Assembly: GCA_030620115.1 (NCBI GenBank)
Contig: JAUXFG010000041.1
Location: 1-27,461, forward strand
Origin: Candidatus Fermentibacterota bacterium
Lineage (GTDB): Bacteria; JAFGKV01
Reading direction: 5' to 3'
Length of the DNA stretch: 27,461 nt
Shown here: positions 5,725 to 27,461 of the stretch, one piece after another
How positions within the stretch are numbered: position 1 is the first letter of the stretch
Layout: each line of letters opens with the position of its first letter
Notes under the pieces: model-generated
What the model was told of the DNA's origin: nothing
The model's database searches: none
What the model saw: only the letters and a program-made list of their open reading frames with translations
Program-made: the position numbers and the translations under genes

Positions 5725-8600
5725 TGCTTGTCAGATCCCGACTATCACTCGCTTTCTTGGCCATTGCGACGCTGTGGATAGGCTCAGCCTGGTCACAATA
5801 CTTTGGTCAGAACAAGGTCCAATACCACGATTTCGACTGGAAGGTCATTCACACCGACAATTTTGATGTACACTATTATGGTTCTGAGCGCCGTACTGCG
5901 CTCGATGCAGCCCGACTGGCCGAGAAAGCATACGCCGAGCTCGCTGAAGATTTCGGCTATGAGGTTGACGACCCGATCCCTTTGATTCTCTACGCCTCTC
6001 ATGGGCATTTCCAGGAAACGAATGTGATCCCTTCTCTCATCTCAGAAGGCACCGGGGGCATCACTGAACTGACCAAGCGAAGGGTATTCCTGCCCTTCAC
6101 CGGGAGCTATGCCGAGTTGAACCATGTGCTCAAGCATGAGTTGGTACATGCATTCCAGATAGATCGTCTCTTGGGGAGCGGCCGTGCTCTCATGGCAAGC
6201 CAGTTCGTCTCTCCACCTCTCTGGGTGATGGAGGGGATGGCGGAGTATTACAGCCTTGGCGGCATAGATGGAAATACGGCGATGTGGATGAGAGATGCCG
6301 CAATGTCGGGATACCTCATCGACATCGAACAGCTCAGTCGGGTATACGACATTCGCGTGTATCGGTTCGGGCAAAGCATCATATCGTTCATCGGCGACCG
6401 CTACGGAAACCAGAAAGTCGGCGAGCTCTGGCTCCGCCTGACCCGGCTCAACAGCCTGGACAAGGCTATTGAGAAAACACTCGGCATGACGGTGAAGGAA
6501 TTCTCTCGCAAGTGGCATCTCCACGTACGCAGAACATATCTCCCTCAGATCGCCGGCCGCGATTCCCCCCATGAGACAGCCAGGTTGGAGGCTGGCGGGC
6601 CGGATGCTCGCGGAAGCTACTACCTCGCTCCAGCACTCAGCCCGAACGGCGAACGCATGGTGTTCATATCGGATCAGGACATGCTCATCGATCTATGGGT
6701 CAAGAATGAGGACGGAAGCACCAAGCGACTCGTGAAAGGCCAGCGTTCTGGCACATTCGAATCCTTGCGCTTCCTCTCCACCACCATCTCATGGTCGCCG
6801 GATGGCAACCAGCTTGCGCTCTCCGTTAAGTCCGGCGGCAAGGAGGGCATCTATCTCATCGATTCGTCTTCCGGGAAGATCCGTAAGAAGATCTTCCCGC
6901 CATTGGACGGCGTGGCAGGTCCTGCGTTCAGCCCGGACGGAAAGCGTTTGGCCTTCGTGGGTTTCCACGGCGGGCAATCTGATCTGTATCTTTATGACCT
7001 GGCCACCGATGAGCTGAGCGTGCTCACCGATGATCGCTATGCGGAACGAGATCCGTCATGGTCCCCCGACGGCACCCATCTGGTCTTTTCCACGGATCGT
7101 TCAGCTCTGACCGACTTCTCAACCTTGCTCATCGATAATTGGGGAATTGGAATCATGGAGCTCGAGTCCAGGATGATCACCTTGCTTCCACGCCTCTCGG
7201 GCAAGAACCTGAACCCCGTGTATTCTCCCGACGGGCGCTATCTCGCCTTCGTGTCGGACGCTGATGGCATCGCGAATGTCTATATGTGGGATCAGGATTC
7301 CCTCCGTGTGGGCAAGTTGACCAATGTGTTTACCGGGATCAGCGGGCTGACCAACAACAGTCCGTGCCTCAGCTGGGCCATGCATGATGACCGTTTGGCC
7401 TTCTCCTCATTCGAGGAGGGGAAGTGGAACGTCTACACCATTGATGATCCCGTGACCATGGTGAACGAATGGAACCCGCCGCCCGCGGCAGTGCCCGAAG
7501 TTCCGACCGATCAACCGGTTCCCAGCATTGCTGATACCACCACATTTGTCATCTCTGACTACAAGGTCGGCTTCTCGGCTGACTACCTTGCCGGTGGAGC
7601 CGTGTTCTCCTCCAATTATGGCTTACTGGGACAATCGTACGTCTCCTTCAGCGATATCCTGGGCAATCATTCCATTACCGTGGGGGCAGCCATCTACGGA
7701 TCTCTGACGGATGCTGATCTTCTCCTCTCCTACACAAATCTCGAAAAACGGCTCAATTGGGGGGTGGCGTTGTACCAGTATCGCAATGACTATCTCCTTT
7801 TCGAGGCCTCCGACCGGGAGGAATTCAGGAGTGAAATCTACCGTGGCGGTGAGGCGCGATTACTTTGGCCACTCTCGCGATTCTCTCGTTTTGAGCTCTC
7901 GCTGGAGTTGCTCGCTATTGATCAGAAAACATACATGCATACGATATATGATCCCACGCACCTCTATGAGCTGGATCAGGCAAACCTCTTCTACATGGCC
8001 CCGGCACTGTCTTGGGTGACTGACAATACGATCTGGGGTTCAACAGGACCCATCGCGGGCCACCGTACCCGCGTTTCGGCACAACTGGCGCGTGGTGACC
8101 TGAATTTCTTCACCGGCGTCTCGGATTTCCGGCTCTATCAGAACATCGCACGGGACTACGTATTTGCCACAAGAGGGGTATTCGGGCTGAGCGAGGGCGA
8201 TACGCCGCAGCTCTTTCATATTGGTGGAGCTCAATCGCTGAGGGGCTACGACTATGGGAGCCTCGAGGGGAGCAGGGCGTTCCTCGCCAATCTGGAGTTT
8301 CGATTCCCGCTTGTTCGGCACTTGTGGCTCGGATTTCCTTTGCCCCTGAACATCTGGGACATGAGAGGATGCCTCTTCTTGGATGCGGGGACGACCTGGC
8401 AAGACTGGGATGTTTCATTCTTCACCAAGGACGAGAGTACAGGTTTGCTCAAGACAAAGGATCTCCACGCATCTTATGGTCTCGGTGCGCGGCTGAATCT
8501 AGGCATCTTCGTACTCAAGTACGACCTCGCGCGGAAAACGGATCTCGTCTCCAGCAAAGGAGTCTGGGATTCCATATGGTCTCTTGGCGCGGAATTCTAG
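5724..8600 (+). CDS. Secreted gluzincin-like peptidase domain fused to PD40 propeller and outer-membrane barrel
   Basis: The ATG at 5724 follows GAGAGGGG and starts a clear signal peptide (LSLAFLAIATLWIGSAWSQ), giving 958 residues; the frame is open further upstream but without these features. Residues about 45-275 form a peptidase-MA-like domain with HELVH (H138, E139, H142) and WVMEGMAEYY, whose E170 is the likely third zinc ligand. Residues about 300-580 hold at least five PD40/TolB-type WD repeats, each with an SPDG-like core (near 306, 358, 403, 447 and 500). After a proline-rich linker (about 583-600), residues about 605-958 look like a surface-antigen (Omp85/BamA-like) barrel with the hallmark GGAQSLRGYDYGSLEG and a C-terminal aromatic residue (GAEF). 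The peptidase and propeller would sit in the periplasm or at the surface, anchored by the barrel. The domains are recognised by motif; the biological role is unknown. Confidence 0.85.
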   Translation: MLVRSRLSLAFLAIATLWIGSAWSQYFGQNKVQYHDFDWKVIHTDNFDVHYYGSERRTALDAARLAEKAYAELAEDFGYEVDDPIPLILYASHGHFQETNVIPSLISEGTGGITELTKRRVFLPFTGSYAELNHVLKHELVHAFQIDRLLGSGRALMASQFVSPPLWVMEGMAEYYSLGGIDGNTAMWMRDAAMSGYLIDIEQLSRVYDIRVYRFGQSIISFIGDRYGNQKVGELWLRLTRLNSLDKAIEKTLGMTVKEFSRKWHLHVRRTYLPQIAGRDSPHETARLEAGGPDARGSYYLAPALSPNGERMVFISDQDMLIDLWVKNEDGSTKRLVKGQRSGTFESLRFLSTTISWSPDGNQLALSVKSGGKEGIYLIDSSSGKIRKKIFPPLDGVAGPAFSPDGKRLAFVGFHGGQSDLYLYDLATDELSVLTDDRYAERDPSWSPDGTHLVFSTDRSALTDFSTLLIDNWGIGIMELESRMITLLPRLSGKNLNPVYSPDGRYLAFVSDADGIANVYMWDQDSLRVGKLTNVFTGISGLTNNSPCLSWAMHDDRLAFSSFEEGKWNVYTIDDPVTMVNEWNPPPAAVPEVPTDQPVPSIADTTTFVISDYKVGFSADYLAGGAVFSSNYGLLGQSYVSFSDILGNHSITVGAAIYGSLTDADLLLSYTNLEKRLNWGVALYQYRNDYLLFEASDREEFRSEIYRGGEARLLWPLSRFSRFELSLELLAIDQKTYMHTIYDPTHLYELDQANLFYMAPALSWVTDNTIWGSTGPIAGHRTRVSAQLARGDLNFFTGVSDFRLYQNIARDYVFATRGVFGLSEGDTPQLFHIGGAQSLRGYDYGSLEGSRAFLANLEFRFPLVRHLWLGFPLPLNIWDMRGCLFLDAGTTWQDWDVSFFTKDESTGLLKTKDLHASYGLGARLNLGIFVLKYDLARKTDLVSSKGVWDSIWSLGAEF

Positions 8601-8666
8601 CCCGGATTTCTGGGATGTTTCAGGATAGGCAGCATAAACTCCGCGCAACGATCTCGATGTGCGGAT

Positions 8667-8940
8667 AAGATTGCTTCGTCGCTGCCCTCCTCGCAATGAC
8701 AGGTGGAGGGGCTGGTCATCGCGAGCGATAGCGCGGCGATCTCAGTTGAGGGCCTGAGATTGCTTCGTCGCGCGCTCTGTCCTGCCTCCGGCCTGTAGGG
8801 CCTACGCCCCGGAGGGAGCTTGTCGCTCGCCCCCTCGCAATGACTGAGGGTGGAGCCACGGTTCCGGGATCTCTCTACGGGATTTTGTATCCCCATCGTG
8901 AGCCGTTGCGCGAGGTCGAGACCGCAAGACGAGAGAATAA
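8667..8940 (-). repeat. Composite dispersed repeat, copy 1 (with about 55-bp insertion)
   Basis: Read on the minus strand, this block aligns end to end with 12873-13091. Both start near ATTCTCTCGT, run through ATCCCGTAGAGAGAT and ACCGTGGC, then CAGTCATTGCGAGG, and end in GACGAAGCAATCT motifs. By eye about four fifths of aligned bases match. Copy 1 is 55 nt longer because one GATTGCTTCGTCG...CTCGCAATGAC unit (8756-8844) contains extra sequence. No gene is visible in 8601-9035, including the long minus-strand ORF across it. Confidence 0.75.
8771..8830. repeat. Extra hairpin segment inside composite repeat copy 1
   Basis: The unit 8756-8844 is 89 nt, whereas the equivalent unit of copy 2 is 34 nt, so about 55 nt has been gained here (or lost there). 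The extra piece has its own nested inverted repeats: CTCCGG with CCGGAG on the outside and GTAGG with CCTAC inside. Exact borders are uncertain by several bases. Confidence 0.5.
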
Positions 8941-8959
8941 TAAATCCCGGACTTCTCAT

Positions 8960-9032
8960 ATTGATGAGGAATAGGGTTTTGATACTTGAATACTGACAGC
9001 CGACACCTGCAATAGAAGAGGTTTCAAGGAAC
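8960..9032 (+). repeat. Heptamer-cored dispersed element, copy at trkH 5' end
   Basis: From 8985 to 9032 it matches 18642-18689 at 39 of 48 positions without gaps (counted by eye), and weaker similarity with one indel reaches back to TTGATGAG near 8961. The core is a run of 7-bp units (ACTTGAA, TACTGAC, AGCCGAC, ACCTGCA). Its right end TTTCAAGGAAC contains the AAGGA that serves as the Shine-Dalgarno of trkH. Just before it, CCCGGACTTCTCA (8947-8959) is one end of the palindromic family seen at 10900, 18366 and 26003. Confidence 0.65.
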
Positions 9033-9035
9033 ACA

Positions 9036-10796
9036 ATGATCAGCAGACCAATCGAACCGCCACGGAAGTGGCCATTCGGCGAGCGTTCGTTTCCTACGGT
9101 CCGAAGGCTTTCGAGAAGCATTCTCCTGGCACTGACTGTCTGGACATTTGTTGCGTGGCTATGGGAGCACGGTCTCGTGCTGGATGTCCCACGGGAGTTC
9201 ATCTGGCCAACGCGTATCCTCGATATCTTGGCGATTATCTCTCTGGCCGCTGCATCCATCTTGCGCCTGATCACCGCCACAAGCACGCTCAGAACAAGAA
9301 CAGGCATATTCGGGGCGATTATCGCGGTGCTCTCCTTTCTCCGGTGGTTGCATACCGGTGATGCGCGCCTCCTGGTCCTCTGTGGGCAGATCGTTCACCT
9401 GGCCTCTTCTCCGGCAGCGGAAAATATCCGTGAATGGCTCGTGCAACAGCTGGAAACCCGGGCCGCGAGGCTTGTCCCCCTCTCTTTCCTCATCTGTATT
9501 CTTGCCGGCACTCTGCTCCTCTCCCTCCCGGTCTCCGTTCGTCATCATTCGGCCCCTCCTCTGGTGGATGCCCTGTTCACGTCAACTTCGGCCACCTGCG
9601 TCACCGGGCTCATTGTCCATCCCACGCCAACCTACTTCAGTGGCTTCGGGCATTGGGTCATTCTTGCCCTGATCCAGGCTGGCGGTCTCGGAACCATGAC
9701 CCTCTCACTGGCGGTATTGCTGCTCTTTCGTACGGCGCCCATGGGCAGGCAGCGACAGGCGTTGTTGGATATCTTCCCTGGCGTGAGAAGAGCAGAGATC
9801 TATCATATGGTACGATTCCTCTTTTTTGTGACATTCGGCGCCGAAGCCCTGGGGTGGCTCGCGCTCAGCCTCTCCGGTTTGCCGGCATCGCCCTCGGGAG
9901 CGGGAGGAGCCTTCTTGTCCCTCTTTCATGCAGTATCAGCCTTCTGCAATGCCGGATTCTCACTCTACAACGATAGTCTCTCGCGTTGGCCGGCTTCCTC
10001 CGTACTGACCATAGCCGGGCTTGTGATCATCGGCGGCCTCGGCTTCATCGTATTGAGGGAATTGGTGCACCCCATGTCGTGGAAGCTGATCCAGCGCCAA
10101 ACGTCTGCCTCAGTCTGGTGGAGCAGGCTCTCACTCCATACCAAAATGGCGCTTTTCGCCACGGCAGTCCTTCTTGTACTTGGCACGATACTGGTGTTCT
10201 ACGGCGAGTTCGACAGCTCTCTTCGGGAGTATTCGTTTGGAACCAAGATACTCCACTCGTTCTTCCAATCGGTTACCATGCGTACCGCGGGATTCAACAC
10301 GATTCCTATTGAGGCCCTCTCGCCGGCCCTCCTTTTTGGCGCTTGTTTGTTCATGTTTATCGGCGCCTGTCCCGGCTCCACCGCGGGGGGCATAAAGACC
10401 ACCACCGCGGCAGTACTGCTTCTTTCTCTCAGATCAATGGTATCAAGACGAGGCACTCTCGAGTTCCATGGTCGCCGCGTCGATGAGAGGCTCTTTCAGA
10501 AGGCGGTTGCCATTGCGCTCACCGCCATGGCGACTCTCTCTCTTGGGATCTTCCTCCTCCTGGTGGTAGAGGCAAAGCCAACCCTCTCTCTTATCTTCGA
10601 AGCCGCTTCGGCATTCGGCACGGTTGGCCTTTCTACTGGCATCACAGGCGATCTCAGCGTGTCAGGAAAGCTCATCATCATTGTGCTCATGTACGCGGGG
10701 AGGGTCGGCCCCCTCACCATCGCTCTGTCCCTTGGGATGAAAACCCGCTCCGCACCACGCCATCAGTACCCTACCGGCGACGTGCTGGTTGGCTAA
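9036..10796 (+). CDS. TrkH/KtrB-family potassium (cation) uptake channel with N-terminal membrane extension
   Basis: This 586-residue inner-membrane protein has the four pore loops of the SKT superfamily, which moves K+ (or Na+ with K+) into the cell. The filter glycines are in TSATCVTGL (G191), SAFCNAGFS (G307), TMRTAGFNT (G419) and SAFGTVGLSTG (G531), about 112-116 residues apart. CPGSTAGGIKTTT (about 445-457) follows the third filter, as in other TrkH/KtrB proteins. About 145 residues with roughly three to four hydrophobic segments precede the first pore unit, which is longer than KtrB (about 450 residues). Start: ATG at 9036 with AAGGA about 7-8 nt upstream, inside a dispersed repeat. A regulatory TrkA/KtrA partner with RCK domains is expected but is not in the window. 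Confidence 0.92.
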   Translation: MISRPIEPPRKWPFGERSFPTVRRLSRSILLALTVWTFVAWLWEHGLVLDVPREFIWPTRILDILAIISLAAASILRLITATSTLRTRTGIFGAIIAVLSFLRWLHTGDARLLVLCGQIVHLASSPAAENIREWLVQQLETRAARLVPLSFLICILAGTLLLSLPVSVRHHSAPPLVDALFTSTSATCVTGLIVHPTPTYFSGFGHWVILALIQAGGLGTMTLSLAVLLLFRTAPMGRQRQALLDIFPGVRRAEIYHMVRFLFFVTFGAEALGWLALSLSGLPASPSGAGGAFLSLFHAVSAFCNAGFSLYNDSLSRWPASSVLTIAGLVIIGGLGFIVLRELVHPMSWKLIQRQTSASVWWSRLSLHTKMALFATAVLLVLGTILVFYGEFDSSLREYSFGTKILHSFFQSVTMRTAGFNTIPIEALSPALLFGACLFMFIGACPGSTAGGIKTTTAAVLLLSLRSMVSRRGTLEFHGRRVDERLFQKAVAIALTAMATLSLGIFLLLVVEAKPTLSLIFEAASAFGTVGLSTGITGDLSVSGKLIIIVLMYAGRVGPLTIALSLGMKTRSAPRHQYPTGDVLVG

Positions 10797-10899
10797 TATT
10801 CCGACGCGTCAGGTTGTGCAGGTGTGCGAGTCTTCAGACTTAACGCGGACTTGCCCATCGTAGCGTCCGGCCTCATCTTTGTGCTGAACCTACGCACCT

Positions 10900-10999
10900 T
10901 AGCCCGGACTTCTCACCGGCTTTCGAAGCGAAGTCCCGCGTCGGACGCGGGATGCCATATCGGCGGCTGTAGCCGAAAGTTGGTGAGAAGTTCGGGCTA
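10900..10999. repeat. Long-armed palindromic element, copy 1 (with nested hairpin)
   Basis: Outer arms of 26 nt (10900-10925 and 10974-10999) begin TAGCCCGGACTTCTCACC and pair with three mismatches, most of which become G-U in RNA. The interior holds a second small hairpin (10932-10953). The element ends 29 nt before the start codon of the FG-GAP gene. The rest of the gap 10797-10899 shows no gene and no clear terminator for trkH. Confidence 0.75.
10932..10953. repeat. Mini-hairpin AGTCCCGCG-N5-CGCGGGAT, copy 1
   Basis: The stem TCCCGCG pairs with CGCGGGA around the loop TCGGA. The same arms with a different loop occur at 12791-12812. This copy lies inside the larger palindrome, while the other copies of that palindrome (18366 and 26003) lack it. 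Confidence 0.6.
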
Positions 11000-11028
11000 G
11001 AATCAATCATGAGCACGAGGAGGACAAC

Positions 11029-12729
11029 ATGAGAGCTATTGCCTGCATTTCCGTAACCCTCCTGCTACTTCCAGTGGCTTTGTCCGCAACCGAGGCCGAT
11101 TTCGGCTTGTGCAATGCCCGGGCGACCACACCATCGGACCCGCTGCCACTCCCCCAGGAAAGCAGAGCCGAGCTTCTCTGGAGCTATACCGCGCCTCAAG
11201 ATAATGGAGACATCAATTCCCCGAGATCTCTTCCGGACATCAATGCTGATGGTCTCTGTGAGGTAGTGGTGTGTATCTACGATGCGGGGTATGGACACGA
11301 CGATCTCCTCTGCTTCGACGGCAGGAGCCAGGGAACCGGCTCTATGCTCTGGTCTGTGGATTCGCAGCAAGGCGCCTCCGGGAGCGGAGGCTACGGACAG
11401 GAATGCGTCGAAGTGATATCCGATGTAAATGGTGACGGGATGGCGGATGTGCTCTACGGCACAGCTTGGGGTGGGCGGACCTTCTATTGCCGGTCAGGCG
11501 CAACCGGCGCTCTCCTATGGTACCTCGATACGTATGATGAACCGAACTCCGGCTGGGTATACGATGTGACTGCGTTTCAAGACATCACCAATGATGGCAT
11601 ACCCGAAGCGCTCGCCGCAGTGGGCAAGGACGCGTGCACGCTCTATTGCGTGGATGGATCTTCCTCCGGGGTCGCCGATGTGGTATGGTCCTTTCCCAGT
11701 CCCGACGGCTTCCTGAGCGTTGATGTGCTTGGCGACATCAATGGCGATGGAATCAGTGAGGTGATTGCAGGGAACGGCACCAACTACGAAGACGATCGCG
11801 TGTTCTGCCTCCATGGTGCTGCAGATTGGGGCGGTCCGCGTGAGATCTGGAGCTATCATACAGGTGGTGTCGTCAGATCAGTCATCGCCACGTCTGACAT
11901 CAATGGCGATGGCAAGCCAGACGTCCTGGCCGGATCATCGAATAATTGGGTCTACTGCCTCTCAGGCGAGGATGGAAATCTCTTGTGGTCGCGAAACATG
12001 GGCCACTCGGTCATGAAGCTTGCCCTTCTGGGAGATATGAATGGCGACGGCCTCCCTGAAGTGCTCGTTGGTCCCTCAACCAACGCCATCTACTGCCTTG
12101 ACGGGGCCAATGGGACGGTGTTCTGGTCTACACCCACGGGGACCGCCAATGGGGGCTATGTCTGGACTGTTTCATCCATCGCGGACCTTGATGGCGACAG
12201 TCTGCCTGATGCCATTGCAGGCTCATTCGACACCAAGGTCTATGCGCTTCGGGGCACGGATGGTTTGGTCTTCGATACATTTTCCACGGGACGACGACTC
12301 TATGGAGTTTCGAGTATGCCGGATCTGGATGGTGACGGATTGGAAGAAATCCTCGCGGGAACCCAGGGCCTCTACGGTTCTCATGCAACGCTCTACTGTT
12401 TGTCGGGCGGCAGTTTTGTTCCCTTGCGCCTGTCAATTACACAAATGGCGGGCAGGCTCGAGCTGTCATGGTCACCCTTCGACGGGGCCGCAGCCTATTG
12501 GGTGCATGGGGAGGCAAATAGCCCCTACTTCGTGCCTGCTCTTGTTCCGCAGTACGAGAACAGGCTTGCCGTTCTGGCGCCGACCACTACCACGTGGCTT
12601 ACTGACAACGGAATCGGAAACCCCGAGATGGATTGGACATTTCTCGTCATCGCAGTCAATGGCATTGGTGAGGAATTGTTGCGATCCGGAAGGGTTGGTG
12701 AATCGGAGTTCGTCTCTGCTATCCCATGA
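11029..12729 (+). CDS. Secreted FG-GAP/VCBS beta-propeller protein with C-terminal FnIII-like domain
   Basis: The ATG at 11029 follows GAGGAGGA and starts a signal peptide (IACISVTLLLLPVALSA), so the 566-residue product is exported. It contains eight calcium-loop repeats of the form DxNxDGxxEVLxG, near residues 70, 132, 185, 236, 290, 336, 386 and 432, about 50 residues apart (for example DINGDGISEVIAG and DMNGDGLPEVLVG). Between them are PQQ-like strands such as VYCLSGEDGNLLWS. Eight repeats fit a closed seven- or eight-bladed propeller. Residues about 465-566 look like a fibronectin-III-type domain (LELSWSPFDGAAAYWVHGE). There is no obvious type IX secretion tail or membrane anchor. Proteins of this layout are usually cell-surface or secreted; the ligand is unknown. 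Confidence 0.85.
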   Translation: MRAIACISVTLLLLPVALSATEADFGLCNARATTPSDPLPLPQESRAELLWSYTAPQDNGDINSPRSLPDINADGLCEVVVCIYDAGYGHDDLLCFDGRSQGTGSMLWSVDSQQGASGSGGYGQECVEVISDVNGDGMADVLYGTAWGGRTFYCRSGATGALLWYLDTYDEPNSGWVYDVTAFQDITNDGIPEALAAVGKDACTLYCVDGSSSGVADVVWSFPSPDGFLSVDVLGDINGDGISEVIAGNGTNYEDDRVFCLHGAADWGGPREIWSYHTGGVVRSVIATSDINGDGKPDVLAGSSNNWVYCLSGEDGNLLWSRNMGHSVMKLALLGDMNGDGLPEVLVGPSTNAIYCLDGANGTVFWSTPTGTANGGYVWTVSSIADLDGDSLPDAIAGSFDTKVYALRGTDGLVFDTFSTGRRLYGVSSMPDLDGDGLEEILAGTQGLYGSHATLYCLSGGSFVPLRLSITQMAGRLELSWSPFDGAAAYWVHGEANSPYFVPALVPQYENRLAVLAPTTTTWLTDNGIGNPEMDWTFLVIAVNGIGEELLRSGRVGESEFVSAIP

Positions 12730-12790
12730 GGAAACCATGTTCAATGATGAATCCCCGTTCGAAGGGTTCGCGCAAGAATAAGCTGCTGCG

Positions 12791-12812
12791 AGTCCCGCGC
12801 AGTACGCGGGAT
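12791..12812. repeat. Mini-hairpin AGTCCCGCG-N5-CGCGGGAT, copy 2
   Basis: It has the same arms as 10932-10953 but the loop is CAGTA. It stands free, 60 nt after the FG-GAP gene stop. With only 7-bp stems and no T-tract it is not a clear terminator. Confidence 0.55.
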
Positions 12813-12872
12813 TCGCGATCGAGGCGAGGCCGATCGATGGGCCGAAGATGGGATGTCAAATGATGGGGATGT

Positions 12873-13091
12873 TTCATTCTCTCGTTTTACGGTCTCGGCC
12901 TATCGCTACGGCTCAAGAATAGGAATAAGGAATCCCGTAGAGAGATTCCCGAACCGTGGCCTCACCATCAGTCATTGCGAGGAGGATAACGACGAAGCAA
13001 TCTCATGTCGGCAACTGAGATCGCCACGCTTTCGCTCGCGATGACCCCGAGCCCCCTGTTATTGCGAGGAATGCAGCGACGAAGCAATCTC
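12873..13091 (+). repeat. Composite dispersed repeat, copy 2
   Basis: This block is the uninterrupted counterpart of 8667-8940 in the opposite orientation. Within it, CATTGCGAGG...GACGAAGCAATCTC units (12972-13004 and 13060-13091) alternate with an inverted-type unit ending CTCGCGATGACC (13017-13046); a further inverted unit follows at 13111-13141. It fills most of the 600-nt gap 12730-13329. The rest of that gap holds the mini-hairpin, heptamer fragments and the tRNA promoter region; no protein gene is supported. Confidence 0.75.
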
Positions 13092-13224
13092 GTTGAGAGA
13101 TCGCGGGATGGAGATTGCTTCGCTTCCGCTCGCAATGACAGGCTATGCTCAGGAATCGGGGAATCCAGTACCCTGAACCTGTGAACGGTTACAATTATTC
13201 CTGCGCAAACCCTTAGGACTTCAA

Positions 13225-18352: not shown

Positions 18353-18365
18353 CGTGTCGTCCCCT

Positions 18366-18421
18366 TAACCCGTACTTATCACCAGCTTTCGGCTGCTGCA
18401 GCCGGTGAGAAGTCCGGGTTA
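18366..18421. repeat. Long-armed palindromic element, copy 2
   Basis: The 21-nt arms (18366-18386 and 18401-18421) have ends TAACCCG...CGGGTTA and three mismatches, around a 14-nt centre. It lies 13 nt upstream of the kinase start codon on the minus strand, so it would be in that gene's 5' leader, and its edge touches the Shine-Dalgarno. Confidence 0.75.
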
Positions 18422-18615: not shown

Positions 18616-18689
18616 GTTGATCAGACAAACCTTTCCTGAAACCTGAACACTGACAGCTGACACCTGCAACCGAAACGGCTTCAAGGATC
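18616..18689 (+). repeat. Heptamer-cored dispersed element, copy overlapping a gene end
   Basis: The core is six 7-bp units from 18635 to 18676 (CCTGAAA, CCTGAAC, ACTGACA, GCTGACA, CCTGCAA, CCGAAAC). 18642-18689 matches 8985-9032 at 39 of 48 positions. The last 9 nt overlap the membrane protein gene on the minus strand, so its final residues (DP and the stop) come from the element. Confidence 0.65.
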
Positions 18690-25973: not shown

Positions 25974-26002
25974 GAGGATGAGATCGGTTGGCTATCCAAC
26001 GT

Positions 26003-26056
26003 TAACCCGGACTTCTCACCGGCTTTCCAAGCGAAGCCGGTGAGAAGTCCGGGTTA
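26003..26056. repeat. Long-armed palindromic element, copy 3 (perfect arms)
   Basis: The 23-nt arms (26003-26025 and 26034-26056, beginning TAACCCGGACTTCTCACC) pair without mismatch around the 8-nt loop TCCAAGCG. It lies between two genes that converge here (permease plus, repeat protein minus). It is the best-preserved copy of this family in the window. Confidence 0.85.
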
Positions 26057-26149: not shown

Positions 26150-27461
26150 CTACTCGGCCTGGTTGCTCGGCGATTCCCGGTGCAACCGAAGCCGTTCCTC
26201 CTCGGCTCGTCCGCGCTCCTCCTCTAGCCTGGCGCGCTCATCTTCCATCCGGACGCGTTCCTCCTCGCGCTCGCGCAGCTCTTTTTCACGTAATTCAGGA
26301 TAGAGGAAGGAGTCGGTTTCCGCTGCTTTGCAGTAGTCGAGACGTCTCTGTTCAAAGCCCTTGCGCTTCGCGACAACCCGATACCAGAAGCTAGAATCGT
26401 TGGTTCCGTTCTCCACCTCGAAGCCTGTCAGACCCCGCCTGACCTTGAGCCCGGTGCTTTCCTCATTCTCCAGCTGGACGAACACTTTCAGGGGATTCTG
26501 CTGGTTGATGGTCACCGTCTCCAGAAACAACGGGTCCAGCTCAATGTGGGCTTTCCCATTCACGAGCTGCCCCTCCCCGAAATCCTCGAACCAGTTCTCC
26601 GTGCTCTCTTGGCAGTACATCAGAGTCGGTCCCTGCGACGTCTTCACCACGCAGCTCTTGGTACCGGTCCCCGCCAGCCCGCCCGAGTAGTAGACGCCGT
26701 AGCCGGCCGCCGAATTACTCTGGCCATAGACACCATAGGTCGTGCCTGTCCCGGAGTAGGCGTGGCCGAACACGCCTCGTCCGGAGCTGGAGCCGTTCTC
26801 AAACCTTCCGCCAAAGCATTCGCCAGTGGTGGCAATTGCATGGCCGTAGACGGCACGGCCATTGGTGGAGTTGCTCTCGGCGTAGACCCCGAAGTTCGTC
26901 CCAGTGGTGGCCAGGGCGTAGCCGTACACGCCCCTACCGGACGTGGAGACGCTCTCGAATCTACCCCCGTAGGTGGTGCCCGTGTTAGCCGTGGCCTCGC
27001 CGTACACGCCCCTACCGGACGTGGAGGCATTGGAACCCTCTATGATGCCGCGATTCCCACTGATAGCCGTAAGGGAGAGCGGAACGTCGACATTCAGTGT
27101 GACATCGCCGGACGCGCCGCCTCCATACAGACCAGTGCCCGCATTCACCGCCGATATGTCACCCATTCCCGGAGCAGTGAGGGCGCCGCCAACCGTGAGG
27201 TCGCCGGTGACTTTCGCATCTCCATCAAAGTACCCGGCATAACCCGAGGGAGAATCCGTTTTCCCATACACCCCGTAGTTCGTCCCGGAGGTGGCGGAGA
27301 CGTAGCCGTACACGCCACTGCCGGATGTGGAGTGGCTCTCACCCCTTACCCCATAGGTGTTGCCCGCAGTAGCCGAAGCCTCGCCGTAGACGCCTCTGCC
27401 GGATGCGGAGACGCTCTGGCCATAGACCCCATGGGTGATGCCCGTGGTGGCCGTGTTCACG
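26150..27461 (-). CDS. Surface-type protein with strict 26-residue GVYG repeats, 5' end outside window
   Basis: The frame is open to the right window edge; the GTG at 27460 is probably an internal valine. At least 436 residues are visible. Numbered from there, GVYG-like tetrads fall at 11, 23, 37, 49, 63 and 75, and again at 151, 165, 177, 191, 203, 217, 229, 243 and 255, that is in alternating steps of 12 and 14. The block between (about 80-140) has GDAKVTGDLTVGGALTAPG and GDISAVNAGTGLYGGG, common in tail-fibre-like and cell-surface fibrous proteins. Residues about 265-390 are a compact C-terminal domain (NWFEDFGEGQLVNGKAHIELDP, YRVVAKRKGFEQRRLDY). The last 45 residues are a Glu/Arg-rich coiled coil. 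A terminator follows. It is probably an exported fibrous protein; its signal peptide would be outside the window. Confidence 0.8.
   Translation of the reverse strand, partial: VNTATTGITHGVYGQSVSASGRGVYGEASATAGNTYGVRGESHSTSGSGVYGYVSATSGTNYGVYGKTDSPSGYAGYFDGDAKVTGDLTVGGALTAPGMGDISAVNAGTGLYGGGASGDVTLNVDVPLSLTAISGNRGIIEGSNASTSGRGVYGEATANTGTTYGGRFESVSTSGRGVYGYALATTGTNFGVYAESNSTNGRAVYGHAIATTGECFGGRFENGSSSGRGVFGHAYSGTGTTYGVYGQSNSAAGYGVYYSGGLAGTGTKSCVVKTSQGPTLMYCQESTENWFEDFGEGQLVNGKAHIELDPLFLETVTINQQNPLKVFVQLENEESTGLKVRRGLTGFEVENGTNDSSFWYRVVAKRKGFEQRRLDYCKAAETDSFLYPELREKELREREEERVRMEDERARLEEERGRAEEERLRLHRESPSNQAE

Follow-up and report, generated by a model that had tools for sequence, protein, structure and literature searches.

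An inverted repeat pair around trkH and an FG-GAP gene, very probably two insertions of a MITE that carries CGTC-type REP-like palindromes

MITEs described from bacteria include MITEAba12 (PMC6382973) as well as Nezha, EFAR and others (PMC3733652). Di Nocera et al. (2013) described a superfamily of CGTC-tagged REPs to which RPE-4 and RPE-6 of Rickettsia belong; it is reported without a transposase, and the route by which such REPs spread was left open in that survey (PMC3733652). According to the survey's passage on H. neapolitanus, CGTC-1 dimers are situated inside a 41-bp palindrome (PMC3733652).

The window, i.e. the whole stretch of 27,461 nucleotides analysed here, is one contig of a draft source assembly (4.10 Mb, 296 contigs). 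Its genes trkH and FG-GAP are enclosed by an inverted repeat pair, copy A on the minus and copy B on the plus strand, and this pair of the original prediction is real. An inverted alignment of the copies covers about 240 bp and has a local score of 121, against at most 27.5 in 200 shuffles; the ungapped identity is 86% (201/234 positions). Their longest common exact run is 18 bp, and copy A contains an extra segment of 55 bp relative to copy B. The unique left part that had been reported is present and collinear in both copies. Very probably, both copies stem from old insertions of the same small element, which has no genes, and belong to a single MITE family.

Copy A spans 8612..8948 (minus strand) with a full length of 337 bp including the extra segment; the inverted collinear alignment holds as predicted, whereas the extent of 8667-8940 given with it was too short. 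The right TIR is intact at 8612-8622 (GGGATGTTTCA on the plus strand), and the left TIR, ending at 8948, is decayed to GGGATTTATTA. The target duplication consists of GGATTTCT at 8604..8611 (plus strand; AGAAATCC on the element strand) and GGACTTCT at 8949..8956 (plus strand; AGAAGTCC on the element strand), matching in 7/8 positions. Inside copy A are a REP-like unit at 8667..8700 (minus strand; unit scan match C114:8669-8699 minus) and the arms of a REP-like dimer at 8714..8770 (minus strand). The bamA-like gene upstream ends in a stop codon that consists of the first bases of copy A (TAG).

Copy B is located at 12866..13152 (plus strand), with an approximate boundary at its decayed right end: it extends from 12866 to about 13103, or to about 13152 if a further decayed unit is included. 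Its left TIR, GGGATGTTTCA, is intact (12866-12876, plus strand) and begins the unique left module (12866-12967, plus strand). The inner REP-like dimer follows at 12971..13046 (plus strand), composed of the arm GTCATTGCGAGGAGGATAACGACGAAGCAATCTC and the inverted arm GAGATCGCC...GCTCGCGATGAC, and a second dimer of two inverted arms is found at 13058..13139 (plus strand). The target duplications that were to be looked for at the ends are recognised at copy A only, none being recognisable at copy B with its decayed right end.

The target of copy A lies within a copy of an unrelated palindromic repeat, TAGCCCGGACTTCTCACC..., which makes copy A a nested insertion. For this second family of palindromic repeats (TAGCCCGGACTTCTCACC...GGTGAGAAGTCCGGGCTA, about 55-100 bp), 267 kb of the source genome contain 17 matches to the ends. 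In the window it is present in intact copies at 10899-10999 and 25999-26056, and at the further sites 18365-18421 and 8598-8611 plus 8949 onward, the latter split by copy A. Other repeats of the window comprise a perfect 32-bp palindrome, TGGCCAAGTGGCGGCATGCCGCCACTTGGCCA, directly after an ORF (761-792), which may be a terminator or a further short repeat, and a 51-bp direct repeat (82%) at 8980-9030 and 18637-18687 (CTGACAGCNGACACCTGCAA...), just upstream of two ORFs and unrelated to the MITE. At 26150-27460 the window end truncates a protein with many GVYG-type repeats, and the corresponding DNA repeats are visible in self-comparison.

A genome-wide search for the block of copy B, as proposed with the original prediction, yields full-length-type matches and not the short units alone: with 40 of 134 candidates scored, at least 40 dispersed full-type places were found (43 matches in all, 78-90% identity). 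The family comprises roughly 60 copies in the source genome. Edges are sharp in the copies aligned with their flanks (left GGGATGTTTCA, right TGAAACATCCC), and the sequence outside is unrelated. The 11-bp TIR (GGGATGTTTCA...TGAAACATCCC) is present at both ends, with paired ends in 34 copies. Its 11-mer occurs exactly 67 times in the genome, against 0 for the reversed control, and an element body adjoins 60 of these occurrences. Among the other 7, one has a different hairpin body; the remainder, situated mostly within genes, resemble chance occurrences. The exception, L059 (G000:C126 around 238), combines the left end GGGATGTTTCA with the hairpin body GAGAGATTCTTCGCTCC..., and may represent a second MITE family with common ends.

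Complete copies are mostly 249-277 bp long, with a consensus of about 250 bp and optional internal segments; full-length alignment reveals common ends and modular internal indels. The median identity to the consensus is 92%, so the family is not fresh. Flank identity of the 34 copies bounded at both ends peaks only at a length of 8 (0.643, against 0.353 in mismatched flanks), and lengths of 7 and 9 give background values. In 19 of these 34 copies 6 or more of the 8 flank positions match, in six of them perfectly, where 3% are expected; the other 15 have no recognisable TSD. The duplicated site resembles RRAATTYC. The element is short, non-coding and of high copy number, and its 11-bp TIR, length of about 250 bp and 8-bp target duplications identify it as a MITE. 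Strong support for the original prediction of a non-autonomous mobile element inserted twice thus comes from the TIRs, from the duplicated 8-bp targets and from the dispersal of dozens of copies. Some copies (G000:C102, C10, C246, C237, C161) contain other repeat-like motifs (CCCTTCGGCAAGCTCAGGA..., TCCTGAGCTCAGTCGAAGGGCC), which suggests repeated capture of foreign palindromes.

The GATTGCTTCG units inside the element are CGTC-type REP-like palindromes. On the other strand they correspond to element positions 105-137 (up to 178), essentially the sole part of the element matched in other genomes, with inner-unit matches in 10 of 59. The MITE left module has no match in the other species, plasmids, phages or viral contigs searched. 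An exact pattern of 28 fixed bases recovers the unit across phyla, with at least 118 stretches from named genomes, among them Chryseobacterium, Sphingopyxis, Thioalkalivibrio, Rickettsia, Omnitrophota, Dehalococcoidia, Planctomycetota and WOR-3. The terminal tag of CGTC REPs is CGTC (or TGTC/CCTC); 73 of 81 public occurrences start with CGTC or TGTC, and an inverted partner arm is nearby in 33 of the 81, against 0 in shuffled sequence; tags beside units in the source genome are mostly AGTC/TGTC. Single units fold no better than shuffles, while the dimer does (z -3.6), and for this reason the units are called CGTC-type here and not assigned to the CGTC REPs as members. A literature search for the sequence of the unit found no description.

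The source genome possesses 98 units (reversed control: 0), of which 69 are located near the MITE left module and 13 more near the right module. Another five have only a TIR-like site in their vicinity, and 11 have none of these features nearby, several of the 11 at contig edges. With 82 of 98 units adjoining parts unique to the MITE, we infer that the MITE is how the units multiplied in this genome. The inner dimer is in some places tandemly expanded inside single MITE copies with an 88-bp period, as in L011/L009 (G000:C179:1503-2020, 7200-7552) and also in C208, C215, C139 and C182.

The enclosed segment of the window contains no transposase gene, as had been noted before. An autonomous partner was not found in the draft genome (296 contigs) among six transposase families or by end matching. 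Transposases of the IS1595, ISL3, IS256 and IS6 types are absent from this draft and are thereby ruled out as partners in it. Eight DDE_Tnp_1 genes have no pair of ends matching the MITE in their flanks, and the flanks of four Y1_Tnp genes contain neither the TIR nor a pair of matching ends. Such a partner could belong to another family, have been lost, or be missing from the assembly.

In the explanation proposed here, a cut-and-paste transposase would move the non-autonomous element; an enzyme of DDE type, acting in trans, would have pasted the copies into 8-bp RRAATTYC-like targets. The left and right modules would have been amplified jointly with at least one CGTC-type REP-like dimer (about 88 bp per repeat), and inside the elements dimers would afterwards have been expanded in tandem or lost. 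Most surviving copies are intergenic, with tandem or convergent genes on either side, and the A/B pair very probably reflects two insertions that occurred independently and came to lie near each other by chance, without acting as a switch.

The CGTC/TGTC-tagged palindromes inside the element and the four Y1_Tnp genes of the genome would also suit spreading of REP-like palindrome clusters by a RAYT/IS200-type (Y1) transposase, the common ends being secondary. This is very improbable: the units travel with the TIR and with both unique modules, left and right, the TIR is absent from the Y1_Tnp flanks, and 8-bp duplications are present, which are a signature of DDE transposition and not expected from Y1 single-strand transposition.

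Only 4 of 39 copies are inside an ORF (at least 120 aa), compared with 55% of random placements, and the gene contexts are tandem (20), convergent (13) and divergent (1). This bias fits insertion anywhere, followed by survival where neither a gene nor a promoter is hit. For the consensus strand, a fold of three hairpin domains is predicted, which the terminal repeats close and which is stronger than that of shuffles (z -4.2; the two window copies -2.4 and -2.5). Given such a closed multi-hairpin fold, the copies could possibly affect downstream transcripts. Together with the position of copies downstream of genes, the predicted fold might point to a structured RNA or a transcription terminator whose copies arose because their function was selected and not by transposition. 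We regard this, too, as very improbable, since TIR and 8-bp TSD require transposition; the modules vary and decay freely, and apart from a tRNA there is no Rfam match. A function gained once the element had inserted would be compatible with a MITE.

In G002, a relative of a different genus but the same family, the bamA-like gene, trkH and FG-GAP are adjacent in the same order and on the same strand, with no match to the element. G002 is the only syntenic relative, and at 50-67% protein identity the empty sites are not base-precise. The alternative orientation of the trkH/FG-GAP segment is not seen in it. The enclosed segment of the window consequently seems to have kept its ancestral orientation, and both insertions, missing at the locus of G002, probably arose in the lineage of the window. 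That the 3.9-kb segment between two inverted collinear copies is flipped by recombination, resulting in phase variation of trkH/FG-GAP, is accordingly unsupported and exceedingly improbable, considering the same orientation in G002 without the repeats, the longest exact run of 18 bp at 86% identity, which is poor for RecA-type recombination, the presence of the element at dozens of unrelated places, and an enclosed segment in which no recombinase is seen. For the window, the inverted pair is explained by ordinary insertions of the MITE, and the phase-variation reading is removed.

The element family is new to the collections searched, its kind, the MITE, being already known. It shares with bacterial MITEs the short non-coding sequence, TIRs, target duplication, many dispersed intergenic copies and the lack of a transposase of its own, but differs from those named above in having no identified parental IS and variable numbers of REP-like dimers. 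It is unusual because its internal palindromic repeat occurs across many bacterial phyla with no known way of spreading. About five sixths of the units in the source genome are beside MITE-specific sequence, which offers a concrete, testable route, with the units as passengers of an ordinary TIR/TSD element. Speculatively, and with a rather low probability in our estimation, transposase-less CGTC-type REPs may hitch-hike by inserting into, or being captured by, DDE-type MITEs, to be multiplied within a genome and possibly carried between lineages, the element described here being a preserved carrier. Like CGTC REPs, the inner unit possesses a CGTC/TGTC tag followed by arms that start with AT, and forms inverted dimers in many phyla without a dedicated transposase. 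Unlike them, its dimer is placed inside a TIR/TSD element, and in contrast to the single CGTC REP unit, with a stem of 8-9 bp, a loop of 4-5 nt and a CCA-like tail, the single unit has no such stem and a CTC tail. As in CGTC-1 of H. neapolitanus, a CGTC dimer is nested in a larger inverted repeat; the survey's passage on CGTC-1 gives neither a target duplication nor unique modules, whereas the element described here possesses both.
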